Shown here in pieces: positions 9,607 through 13,178 of a stretch of 35,227 nt of DNA (the stretch's first letter is position 1; every line of letters starts with the position of its first letter). A program made the translations under genes and the position numbers. The stretch lies in NCBI GenBank assembly GCA_013140605.1, contig JABFSL010000108.1, forward strand, positions 1 through 35,227. The letters run 5' to 3'. Source of the DNA: Anaerolineales bacterium. GTDB lineage: Bacteria > Chloroflexota > Anaerolineae > Anaerolineales > Villigracilaceae. The notes under the pieces are model-generated. The model ran no database searches. It was not told where the DNA came from and worked only from the letters and a program-made list of their open reading frames with translations.

Positions 9607-9635
9607 TTGACGCCTTTTCCCTTTCCCCGTAAGAT
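9607..9635 (+). promoter_or_regulatory. Sigma-70 type promoter for gyrA
   Basis: TTGACG (9607-9612), 17-bp spacer, TAAGAT (9630-9635). The -35 hexamer is identical to that of the rpoC promoter. It predicts a leader of about 100 nt before the gyrA ATG at 9745. Confidence 0.7.
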
Positions 9636-9693
9636 AAGCCCCGCAATAGAACATACATTCACTGCGAAGAATACAAAAATACGAAGGTTTGGT

Positions 9694-9728
9694 TTTCCTT
9701 TGTGTACCTTGGTGTCCTTCGTGGTTAA
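9694..9728 (-). repeat. Dispersed repeat, ACCACGAAGGACACNAAGG type
   Basis: The minus strand reads AACCACGAAGGACACCAAGG followed by TACACAAAGG. A near match lies on the plus strand at 26417-26446. In the gyrA leader it ends just before the ribosome site. Confidence 0.5.
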
Positions 9729-9744
9729 AATTTTCGGAGCAGCT

Positions 9745-12333
9745 ATGGAACTCGGTATCGTTAGAAAAATAGACATTGACACTGAAATGCAGCAATCGTA
9801 TCTCGATTATGCGATGAGCGTAATTGTTGCGCGCGCCCTGCCCGACGCGCGTGACGGACTCAAGCCTGTGCAACGGCGCATCCTGTATGCGATGTATGAC
9901 ATGGGCATCCGCGCGGATACGGCTTACAAGAAGTCCGCTCGTATCGTCGGTGAAGTGCTTGGTAAATATCATCCGCATGGTGACTCGGCGGTGTACGAAG
10001 CCATGGCGCGCATGGCGCAGGATTTCTCGCTGCGGACATTGCTCGTAGATGGTCAGGGGAACTTTGGTTCTGTCGATGGCGACCCGCCAGCCGCGATGCG
10101 TTATACAGAGGCGCGGCTCACATCCGCTGCGCTGGATATTCTGTTCGATCTCAACAAGGAAACTGTTGACTTCGTCCCGAACTTTGACGACACCCTCGAA
10201 GAGCCAGGCGTTCTGCCCGCCGCGATTCCCAATTTGTTGGTGAATGGCGCAACGGGTATTGCTGTGGGTATGGCGACCTCCATCCCGCCGCATAATCTGG
10301 GCGAGATCGTTGATGCGCTGGTGTACATGATCGAGAAGTGGGACAAGCTCGATGATATTGATGTCGAGCAGTTGATGGAGTTCGTGCAGGGACCTGATTT
10401 CCCCACGGGCGGAATCATCATTCAGGAAAAGGGCGAAGAGGATATTGAGTCCGCATATGGTTCGGGTCGCGGGCGAGTCACCGTGCAGGCCAAGGCGCAC
10501 ATCGAAGAGATGGAAAGAGGCAAGAGCCGAATCATTGTCACAGAATTACCGTACCAGGTCAACAAGTCCAGTTTGATCGAGCGCATCGCCGAGCTGGCGC
10601 GCGACGGTCATCTCGAAGGTCTGTCCGATCTGCGCGATGAATCCGATCGGCAGGGGATGCGCATCGTCCTTGAAATGACGAAGAATGTCGATCCTGAATC
10701 TGTGCTGCGTGAGCTGTACAAACGCACGCCGATGCAAACTACTTTCGGCATCAATCTGCTGGCGCTGGTGGATGGTGAGCCGCGAACACTAACGTTGAAA
10801 CAGGCATTGCGCGTTTATGTTGAACATCGATTAACGATCATCAAACGCCGCGCCGAATTCGATCTGGCGAAGGCCAAAGCGCGCGCGCATATCCTTGAAG
10901 GATATTTGATCGCGCTTAAGAATTTGGATGAGATTATTCAGATCATTCGCAACGCGCCGGACGTGGAGACTGCCCGGCAAAAACTGATGAAGCGTTACAA
11001 GCTGACAGAGTTGCAGGCCAACGCCATCCTCGACATGCAGTTGCGCCGTCTGGCCGCGCTTGAGCGCAAGAAGATCGATACCGAATACAAGGAAGTCGCT
11101 GGGATCATCAAAGATTTAAATACGTTACTGAAATCTCAGAAGTTAATGCGCGCTGTGGTATCCGATGAACTCCTGCGCGTGAAAGCCGCCTACGGTGACC
11201 GGCGCCGCACACAAATCGTAAATCTTAAGAAGAGTGGAAAAGGCGTCAGGTCATTGGTCGCCACGGATTTGATCACCGAGCAAACCGTTTGGATCGGCGT
11301 GACCGCGGACGGTATCATGGCGCGTACGCATGAGGATAAAGCGCCGCGTCCATCGGGCAATGAAGCACCGCATTTCCTGGTCAGAGCTTCATCCACAGAC
11401 ACACTTTATCTGGTCGCTGAAAGTGGCAAAGCCGCCGCCATCGCATTGCACACCCTGCCAGAGATCGGCTCGAACGGACATTTATCCGATGGCATTCCAT
11501 ACTTCAAAGCCTCACCGTTGAATGAGGATGATAAACTCGCGGCTTTATTTTCCCTGCCTGCCAAACGCTCTGAATTCGCACCAGAGACTTGTGTCATCAC
11601 AATCTCACGCTTTGGTTTGGTCAAGAAGAGTCTCGTTACTGAATTACCTGGCCCATCGGCGCAGACGTTTGTTCTCGCCAGAGTCAACGAAGGCGACAGG
11701 CTCGGCTGGGTTGGATTAACTGACGGTTTAAAGAAGGATGTCCTGCTGGTCACATCCAGCGGAATGGCGATCCGCTTCAAGGAAGATGATGTGCGCCCGA
11801 TGGGACTCGTAGCTGCGGGTGTGAACGGAATCAAGTTGGATGAAAGTGATGAATTGGTTGGCGCAGAAATCCTGCCCACCGAAGGGGAAATCCTGTTGAT
11901 GACATCTGAAGGCAAAGCCAAGCGAGTCAGCGAAAAGGAATTCCCAACCCAGGGACGCTACGGTAAGGGCGTGAATGTTTGGACATTGCCTAAGAAGGTT
12001 ACGATTGCAGGCGTTGCCTCGGGCAAACCGAATCACATCGCCACCATCCACACCAGCAAAGGCGCACCCAAGTCCGCAAGATTGGACGCGGCTGGAATCC
12101 GCAAGCGCGCATCCACAAAAGGCGATTCGATTGTGGAAGTAAAGCCTAGCGAAGCGGTTACATCCGTGATCGTGGCTTGGACGGTGGATCGGTTTGTGAA
12201 GGTGATTAAGGTGGAGGAGAAGAAAGAAGGAAAGAAGAAAGAGGCGAAACCTGCTAAGTCTGTGAAGAAGGTTACAGCAAAAAATACAGCAAAGCCTGCG
12301 AAGAAGAGTGTTGCGAAGAAAAAGAAGAAGTAG
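9745..12333 (+). CDS. gyrA: DNA gyrase subunit A (type IIA topoisomerase A subunit)
   Basis: 862 aa. The ATG at 9745 was chosen because it follows CGGAGC and begins the conserved [20 protein letters not shown]; an upstream in-frame TTG at 9607 is the first base triplet of the promoter -35 box. The catalytic tyrosine is Y120 in AAMRYTEAR, equivalent to E. coli Y122. The winged-helix/tower core is followed by a beta-pinwheel C-terminal domain from about residue 500, with a degenerate GyrA box (QGRYGKGV). The protein ends in a Lys/Ala/Pro tail of about 40 residues, probably a disordered DNA-binding extension. ParC cannot be wholly excluded, but the pinwheel and overall length favour GyrA. gyrB is not adjacent. 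The RAYT unit follows directly. Confidence 0.92.
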
Positions 12334-12345
12334 GTTTGCGCCCTA

Positions 12346-12396
12346 AAACCTCCGAGGTCTTGCGAAGCACCCTGTGGGTAAAGACCTCGGAGGTTT
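12346..12396. repeat. REP-like hairpin left of the RAYT gene
   Basis: Perfect 16-bp arms AAACCTCCGAGGTCTT (12346-12361) and AAGACCTCGGAGGTTT (12381-12396). The 19-nt loop can form a small ACCC/GGGT stem. It also lies immediately after the gyrA stop and could act on the gyrA mRNA 3' end, but no T-tract follows. Confidence 0.8.
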
Positions 12397-12414
12397 GGTT
12401 TGAGGAGGATACCA

Positions 12415-13050
12415 ATGCCCCGCAGATTAATCCCATTCATGCCTGAACTGTATTATCACATCTACAATCGCGGCAATAATCGCGAGAAAATTTTCTTCGA
12501 GCCTGATAATTACATTTACTTCTTGAAGAAGATCAGAGAGTATCTTGTTCCTATTTCGGATATCGTTGTGTATTGCCTGATGCCGACACATTATCATATT
12601 ACAGTCAGGATAAAGCAGACCTCCGAGATTTCTAAAATCTCGGAGGTCTTGGACGCTAGCAAACCTGAACATTCCCTAATCTCAACCGCAATGATGAAAC
12701 TCTCCGTCTCCTATACCAAGGCCATCAATAAACGATTTCAGCGTGTGGGTGTTTTGTTCCAGGGACAATTTCAAGCCAAACCTATTCTAACTTCAGAATA
12801 TTTGCTGAATCTGTGCCGCTACATTCATGGAAACCCCGTCAAAGATGGAATTGTTTCGGATATTACACAATGGCCTTATTCCAATTATCTCGAATGGATC
12901 GGCGAGCGTGATGGCAAATTGTTTGATAAAGCTTTTGTTCAAGATAACTTTGATACTCCTGAAGAATATCGCAAATTCGTTTTGGAATATTTACGCTCAC
13001 GTCAATTGCCTGAGGATATTCAACGCTATTTGGATTCGCTTGATAAGTAA
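12415..13050 (+). CDS. REP-associated tyrosine transposase (RAYT, Y1/HUH, IS200-like)
   Basis: 211 aa from the ATG at 12415, chosen for the strong GAGGAGG site 6 bp upstream. HUH-type single-strand DNA transposase. The N-terminal strand ELYYHIYNRGNN is typical, the HUH metal motif is H59-Y60-H61 in CLMPTHYHITV, and the likely nucleophile is Y136 in LCRYIHGNPVK. Proteins of this family nick and rejoin REP palindromes. Residues 68-79 are encoded by a 33-bp palindrome matching those on both sides of the gene. It is in frame and lies in the loop after the HUH strand, where family members vary in length, so the enzyme may remain active. Whether it is active or a domesticated copy cannot be told. 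Confidence 0.92.
   Translation: MPRRLIPFMPELYYHIYNRGNNREKIFFEPDNYIYFLKKIREYLVPISDIVVYCLMPTHYHITVRIKQTSEISKISEVLDASKPEHSLISTAMMKLSVSYTKAINKRFQRVGVLFQGQFQAKPILTSEYLLNLCRYIHGNPVKDGIVSDITQWPYSNYLEWIGERDGKLFDKAFVQDNFDTPEEYRKFVLEYLRSRQLPEDIQRYLDSLDK
12617..12649. repeat. REP-like palindrome inside the RAYT coding sequence
   Basis: AGACCTCCGAGATTT (12617-12631), spacer CTA, AAATCTCGGAGGTCT (12635-12649). This is a perfect 15-bp stem. The total of 33 bp keeps the reading frame and equals the length of the palindrome at 13053-13085. Confidence 0.85.
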
Positions 13051-13052
13051 GA

Positions 13053-13085
13053 AGACCTCCGAGGTTTTAAAAACCTCGGAGGTCT
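13053..13085. repeat. REP-like palindrome right of the RAYT gene
   Basis: AGACCTCCGAGGTTTT (13053-13068), one A, AAAACCTCGGAGGTCT (13070-13085). It is a 33-bp palindrome that begins 2 bp after the transposase stop. Confidence 0.85.
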
Positions 13086-13144: not shown

Positions 13145-13178
13145 AAAAACTCCGAGTTGTAGAAGACTCGGAGTTTTT
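13145..13178 (+). terminator. Rho-independent terminator after the gyrA-like tail
   Basis: A 13-bp perfect stem AAAAACTCCGAGT (13145-13157)/ACTCGGAGTTTTT (13166-13178) with an 8-nt loop and a terminal T5. It probably was, or still is, the gyrA terminator. Its CTCCGAG core resembles the RAYT palindromes. Confidence 0.7.

Follow-up and report, generated by a model that had tools for sequence, protein, structure and literature searches.

The window that we analyse is a stretch of 35,227 nucleotides of DNA from an Anaerolineales bacterium, and it carries a gene for a RAYT-type transposase that has a palindrome on each side and a third palindrome, in frame, inside its own coding region (Table 1). 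The reading that we consider likely is that the in-gene palindrome is ancestral, resides in a vertically inherited and domesticated RAYT, and has been kept in most of the descendants. The internal palindrome belongs to the family of the flanking and dispersed copies, it occupies a fixed site in a fixed frame, it has undergone paired changes between homologues, its arms pair beyond the need of the encoded peptide, and palindromes of the same family lie in frame in other genes, in the manner of the Rickettsia palindromic elements (RPE-like copies).

Table 1. Genes, palindromes and hairpin at the RAYT locus, in positions of the window
Feature	Position	Strand	Details
gyrA	9607..12333	+	NCBIfam gyrA over cut-off; RAYT is its downstream neighbour here and at 7 related loci
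RAYT-type HUH/Y1 transposase gene, 211 aa	12415..13050	+	ORF intact, Pfam Y1_Tnp match
Upstream palindrome	12346..12396	.	arms 12346-12361/12381-12396, 16 bp, 100%, 19-nt spacer
In-frame internal palindrome, 33 bp	12617..12649	+	arms 12617-12631/12635-12649, 15 bp, 100%, 3-nt spacer
Downstream palindrome, 33 bp, same family as internal	13053..13085	.	arms 13053-13068/13070-13085, 16 bp, 100%, 1-nt spacer
Further hairpin, CTCCGAG core and T tract	13145..13178	.	inverted-repeat detection; putative terminator

The three palindromes that the first-pass annotation had placed around and within the gene are all recovered as inverted repeats with arms at 100%, and, counted from the ATG at 12415, the internal one does occupy codons 68-79, as claimed, with the peptide QTSEISKISEV. 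The common core that it had described is found as well: the internal and the right-hand palindromes are 85% alike over 41 aligned nt, and the core ACCTCCGAG, with at most one mismatch, occurs 19 times on the two strands of the window versus 5.1 expected, a number that 0 of 100 shuffles reach. As single-stranded DNA, the three palindromes fold with z of -7.6, -7.7 and -7.6, and 0 of 200 shuffles fold equally well. The upstream palindrome sits between gyrA and the RAYT gene, at about the position where, by eye, a hairpin follows gyrA in relatives that have no RAYT there. Its 19-nt loop (12362-12380) itself forms two small hairpins; extra sequence in the loop, in some cases with a second hairpin, is also seen in L292, L081, L120 and L071, and looks as if palindromes were nested inside palindromes. 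Following the downstream palindrome, the segment 13092-13135 resembles the lysine-rich 3' end of gyrA and is possibly a duplicated gyrA tail. After this segment comes the hairpin 13145-13178, whose core is related to that of the palindromes and which is probably a terminator.

The protein matches Pfam PF01797 (Y1_Tnp, E 7.8e-7) and has the histidines H59 and H61 of the HUH motif, invariant in 36 aligned rows, together with the near-invariant Tyr100, which from its family would be the catalytic residue. The predicted structure (mean pLDDT 88.2) is confident outside residues 1-4 and 72-85. The latter stretch, with pLDDT below 50, overlaps the palindrome-encoded codons 68-79, in a loop between the HUH-motif strand (59-66) and the long helix (87-107) that carries Tyr100. 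Among solved structures, the best match of the predicted fold is 4er8, in which a RAYT binds a REP hairpin; a PDB sequence search with the protein gives no match at 0.001. The RAYT of the window would bind the palindrome hairpins as single strands. Beyond the Y1_Tnp match, the HUH motif and the tyrosine, we find the other marks of a RAYT. Two palindromes flank the gene in the window, and in its clade 24 of 32 rows have an upstream palindrome (by a script that missed the window's own) and 23 of 31 a downstream one; copy number, gyrA synteny and dN/dS speak for few copies and vertical inheritance. There is usually one close RAYT copy per genome, not the multicopy mobile element of the IS200/IS605 type; two copies over 205 bits occur in G298, G306 and G312, and several genomes have weaker RAYT-family matches besides the close copy.

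The homologues come from a scan of genome contigs with six peptides, none of them from the palindrome-encoded stretch, that yields 80 loci. The tree has 71 rows, with the loop left out of the alignment, and it omits L061, L092 and L112, as well as L114, L117, L119, L122, L123, L131 and L132 (fragments or far), rows with fewer than 120 aligned residues, and L024-L052 (several equal to included rows). On this tree, a clade of 32 rows with support 97/83 contains 23 full internal palindromes (14-15 of 15 pairs), four partial ones (L059, L069, L081, L082) and five rows without one (L057, L062, L066, L080, L111), the states being assigned from the inspected homologue sequences. The gene is apparently intact in the first four of the rows without one and broken in L111, and therefore the palindrome is not essential. 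A scripted check for a stem after the HUH motif finds at least 12 pairs in 24 of the 32 clade rows (the 23 full ones and L081); in the 39 other rows only L076 does so, and L107 reaches 11. The palindrome of L076 is a different one, of the AAAATCCCGAATTC type, perfect and encoding NPEFFKNSGF; a clade of 33 rows that takes in L076 is not rejected (p-AU 0.336). The first-pass annotation had asked whether the segment is missing from close relatives; 0 of 26 RAYTs outside the clade have an internal palindrome. Homologues with the residues on non-palindromic DNA, which it had named as counter-evidence, are not what we see, as the majority of the close homologues have at the same site both the encoding residues and the palindromic DNA.

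All 27 extracted internal palindromes share one codon register; L061, which is not in the tree, has its internal palindrome within a broken ORF. L057, the sister of L056, has lost one arm in frame, and L082 has a shifted version. In L073, the internal palindrome is lengthened to a 26-bp stem. The presence of the palindrome changes at least seven times on the tree. We read this as one gain and several losses, although the count by itself fits gains as well as losses. By their titles, most of the named records are metagenome assemblies, so that single cases may be mis-assembled, and the pattern rests on many.

As judged by tblastx of the flanks, the gyrA region that precedes the RAYT of the window does so in L053, L054, L055, L056, L057, L058 and L061 as well, and by the same comparison L059, L060, L064 and L070 have a common, different downstream neighbour. 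Since the neighbours differ between subclades, RAYT has moved at times; a recent transposition to the present site is rejected on the gyrA synteny. Six relatives of the same genus have, by eye, no RAYT start in the 260 nt after the gyrA end, and RAYT has therefore also been lost or gained there; five of them (L166, L167, L169, L170, L175) have a hairpin after gyrA. The hairpin of L166 shares its CTCCGA core with the palindromes, so palindromes may have given rise to some terminators. With the internal element common to most of the clade and to the gyrA orthologues, its gain would precede the diversification of the clade, and we hold this identity and age of the element to be highly probable. 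The first-pass annotation had offered self-insertion of a REP-like unit. The REP-like nature stands, since the flanking and dispersed copies belong to the family of this element; a recent insertion in this copy is not supported, as most of the clade and the orthologues behind gyrA share the element. The alternative that it had offered, a transcript structure by which the transposase controls itself, may apply.

Elsewhere in the genome the palindrome is far from absent: exact arms are found at 22 places, the three at the RAYT locus included, against 0 for a reversed-pattern control, and a relaxed pattern gives 30 copies. Each of 25 genomes, the present one included, has 1-76 copies (reversed control 0 or 1), and across the searched genomes the number runs from 1 to 97, below that reported for classical REPs. 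A search of 298 genomes of the class finds the palindrome in 98. In three genomes of genus g71 (G123, G142, G160) the reversed control has 12, 15 and 31 matches beside 0-3 palindrome matches, perhaps another repeat family. At least five palindromes are present in 28 of the 88 genomes with a RAYT match (E up to 1e-10) and in 11 of the 210 without (odds ratio 8.4, uncorrected for kinship). G081, although it lacks a RAYT match at 1e-10, has 94 copies, which suggests another mobiliser or a recent loss of RAYT. From this association, and by analogy with known systems, RAYT probably recognises the dispersed palindrome family.

Among the matches listed for 11 genomes, 125 palindromes were classified; 80 are intergenic and 45 are inside an ORF of at least 90 aa, some of these ORFs being spurious. 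Of the intergenic palindromes, 74 lie between two ORFs, which converge in 27 cases, run in the same direction in 41 and diverge in 6, and the 73 with a neighbouring 3' end are a median of 13 nt away from it (54 within 40 nt). A T tract (at least 6 of 8 bases) stands beside 12 of the 125 versus 15 of 1229 controls. This share exceeds the control, and some palindromes therefore probably double as terminators; as a general explanation of the palindromes, with only 12 of 125 so placed, the terminator is rejected.

The main arm types are CTCCGAG and TTCCGAA, counted in 34 genomes with the RAYT locus subtracted. Once L065 (both types) and L075 (mixed) are set aside, a single full internal type is listed for 23 RAYTs, and a two-by-two table of 19 remains when both G298 RAYTs and L061 and L079 (genomes with fewer than five other palindromes) are taken out. 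The internal type equals the majority type of the genome in 17 of the 19 (Fisher P 0.001, uncorrected). The mismatches among the 23 are L072 (13 versus 14), L073, L079 (too few copies) and L068, and L061 is a tie. G298 has two RAYTs, one per type, together with palindromes of each type (41 and 32 copies, L053 locus removed); G306 also has two RAYTs, L063 with TTCCGAA and L244 with CTCCGAG. The palindrome of L076 occurs three times in its own genome and has one loose match in 33 others (control: 1 in one genome). On the tree, the arm type at the RAYT site switches at least three times; the independent comparisons come to three pairs, random pairings give 1.9 concordant and 0.0 discordant, and the sign test is not significant. 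Co-evolution of palindrome type and RAYT is suggested, not proved.

The palindrome is not special to the transposase, because the same palindromes are found in frame in unrelated genes. From the 45 ORF cases, 30 were chosen for Pfam, 16 have a match and 11 are counted, with the palindrome within, between or just before the domains of the gene. Nine of the 11 are in the TSEV frame, which is that of the transposase, two in the second frame and none in the third. The TSEV-frame carriers are HemW twice (G000 and G299, at the same C-terminal site), aconitase AcnA, ValS, a bifunctional homocysteine methyltransferase/MTHFR and phosphoglucose isomerase (NCBIfam over cut-off), an XdhB-like flavoprotein (NCBIfam under cut-off) and two Eco57I-type methylases. 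The second-frame carriers are a D-cysteine-desulfhydrase-like PLP enzyme and a dihydroorotate-dehydrogenase-like protein (both under cut-off), whose models align without clear added length, so that the palindrome replaces rather than adds. Uncounted are the palindromes outside domains near the ORF end (L216 and L245 in the TSEV frame, L208 in the second, L217 and L238 in the third). L009 was rejected as a C-terminal in-frame insertion, its palindrome being near the start of another ORF.

The aconitase site has a CTCCGAG palindrome in the present genome (L288) and a TTCCGAA palindrome in L291 and L292, the last with a long extra sequence in the loop. By eye, L289, L293, L294 and L298 have remnants or shortened forms, and others (e.g., L290, L295, L299) show no trace. 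The palindrome replaces about six residues here and is therefore not a clean 33-bp addition. Within the genus it is full, by eye, in three of the seven genomes with a trace, our own included, and the relatives are at dS 0.7-1.5 from the gene of our genome; the contrast of this retention with that of the RAYT site (23 of 32) is only suggestive.

The RAYT protein is under purifying selection, with dN/dS outside the palindrome of 0.05-0.11 at dS 0.60-1.15 in seven pairs, and one may ask whether selection on the peptide TSEVxxTSEV alone would leave the palindromic DNA as a by-product of its codons. The TSEV codons do pair with each other, and for this reason each segment was synonymously recoded; recoding still leaves a mean of 10.2 of 15 pairs, as such a by-product would, but 14.6 are observed (n=26; single P 0.0005-0.07). 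Between the window and L053, moreover, both bases of pair 12-22 differ, with the residues altered (V/I and T/I) and the pair kept, L076 has its perfect palindrome with another peptide, and residues 72-85 are the low-confidence part of the fold. We regard selection on the peptide alone as very improbable. Chance or codon by-product is rejected on shuffles, recoding and ssDNA folding. In a paired-change test with 24 distinct 33-mers (identical ones merged, the short L069 out, L061 and L076 added), 8 of 15 pairs have a both-sided change in at least one row versus a shuffled mean of 5.0, with 3 of 500 shuffles reaching 8, and cells with both-sided change number 46 versus 12.3 in the shuffles; further pair types are no more numerous than shuffled (14 versus 14.0). 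The arms pair at 98.1%, and at 55.8% or less once the partners are slid, a percentage that is partly circular with rows chosen as palindromic, the paired changes being less biased.

Paired changes would also arise in a passive resident with no function in the gene, if template switching between the arms during replication repairs mismatches and makes double changes. Excerpts of PMC8794818 describe template switching as a neutral cause that restores hairpin arms and yields compensatory changes, and the dispersed copies are near perfect as well (95 of 125 with 15 of 15 pairs, by a search pattern that favours near-perfect copies). The palindromes at the aconitase site, however, seem to decay within one genus, and repair within a hairpin leaves unexplained that the internal type usually follows the population of the genome; we take a passive resident to be rather improbable. 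Repeated replacement, in which new palindromes keep entering the loop beside or over the old and RAYT itself refreshes the hotspot, would account for the two tandem palindromes of L065 (one of each type), for the extra TSEV-like half copy beside the full palindrome in L054, L067 and L071, and for the switches of arm type on the tree. Against it are the same frame in 27 of 27 and nearly the same residue, for which random re-insertion would need strong filtering, and the identical 33-mer in L060, L063 and L067 despite a dS of 1.15 between L063 and L067; it appears unlikely to us. In the ancestral-palindrome reading that we prefer, the RAYT gene would be a domesticated, vertically inherited single-strand transposase, with 33-bp palindromes that flank the gene and are scattered through the genome. 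In the common ancestor of the clade, one of these would have been gained once, in the loop that follows the HUH strand and in a frame that gives a hydrophilic peptide, and would have stayed perfect or nearly so in most descendants. The internal copy may be kept palindromic through continuing exchange with the other palindromes of the population, or through being read in the same way as they are. The cause of retention that we prefer is a hairpin serving as a putative binding site, with RAYT acting on its own gene or mRNA, and we put forward such self-binding tentatively. A doubtful extension is that the in-gene palindrome works as an operator, through which the RAYT protein recognises the gene that encodes it, and that this RAYT lineage mobilises RPE-like coding palindromes in Anaerolineae.

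The arrangement is like the RAYT/REP system (REPtron) of Stenotrophomonas and E. coli in that, according to excerpts of PMC2817692, PMC3733652 and PMC8266576, a Y1 HUH gene lies between palindromes and the dispersed copies are mostly beside genes. The flanking REPs of orthologous rayt genes in Stenotrophomonas and relatives likewise change and stay palindromic (excerpts of PMC2817692). Group 3 REPs are described as perfect GTAG-headed palindromes, with a 3-nt interruption in Stenotrophomonas (excerpts of PMC8266576). The Anaerolineae palindromes, unlike these, have no GTAG head and fewer copies, and one lies inside the transposase gene itself and is kept by most of the clade; excerpts of the open-licence PMC literature describe no REP within a RAYT gene. 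Compared with GTAG-class REPs (20-50 nt, many copies, mainly extragenic), they are 33 bp long, intergenic in 80 of 125 cases and present in 1-97 copies per genome. GTAG is not a regular neighbour of the palindrome, being enriched yet rare (13 of 250 14-nt flanks versus 45 of 2459 control stretches), CGTC is in 9 of 250 flanks versus 132 of 2459, and no conserved flanking tetranucleotide was found beside the palindromes.

The Rickettsia palindromic elements are found both between genes and, in frame, within conserved genes that are unrelated to each other (excerpts of PMC10969869 and PMC2229807). Intragenic GTAG and CGTC REPs are reported from O. terrae, Thauera, R. conorii and others, the CGTC repeats not being associated with transposase genes (excerpts of PMC3733652). 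Like the present palindromes, these REPs can be wholly within coding regions, near stop codons; unlike them, they are tagged, and the same excerpts mention none inside a RAYT gene (PMC3733652). The coding palindromes of Nematomorpha mitochondria are similarly perfect inverted repeats in translated genes, and differ in their length of up to 284 bp, their mitochondrial location and a transposase link that goes unmentioned in the excerpts (PMC6649704). With the Rickettsia elements, the present palindromes have in common the in-frame copies in unrelated protein genes (11 cases, with aconitase relatives that have none); they differ by being 33 bp rather than about 105-150, by having no CGTC end, and by a transposase gene that both carries the element and is flanked by it. 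Protein-coding palindromes are reported from Wolbachia as well. In the excerpted literature cited here, no enzyme behind protein-coding palindromes of the Rickettsia type was found.

For one family of coding palindromes there is now a candidate enzyme, encoded by a gene that both contains the palindrome and lies between two copies of it. What mobilises these palindromes can thus be tested with a single purified protein and short oligonucleotides. The switched arm types make a natural series for the study of transposase-target matching. If the operator and mobiliser reading is true, the enzyme behind a coding palindrome would be identified, and the transposase would be unable to lose its substrate without changing itself.

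RAYTs outside the clade also have flanking palindromes (upstream in 12 of 25, downstream in 17 of 26), mostly of other families, namely the GTGACAGTCAC, TTTCCCCGGAAAC, AACCTCCCGGAGGTT and GGTGCAACGCAC types. As the flanking families vary by subclade, each subclade tends to have its own palindrome, a pattern that one would expect of RAYTs that recognise their flanking palindromes. The flanks of L083-L109 hold the own palindrome families of other Anaerolineae RAYT subclades, and these are often 33 bp long.
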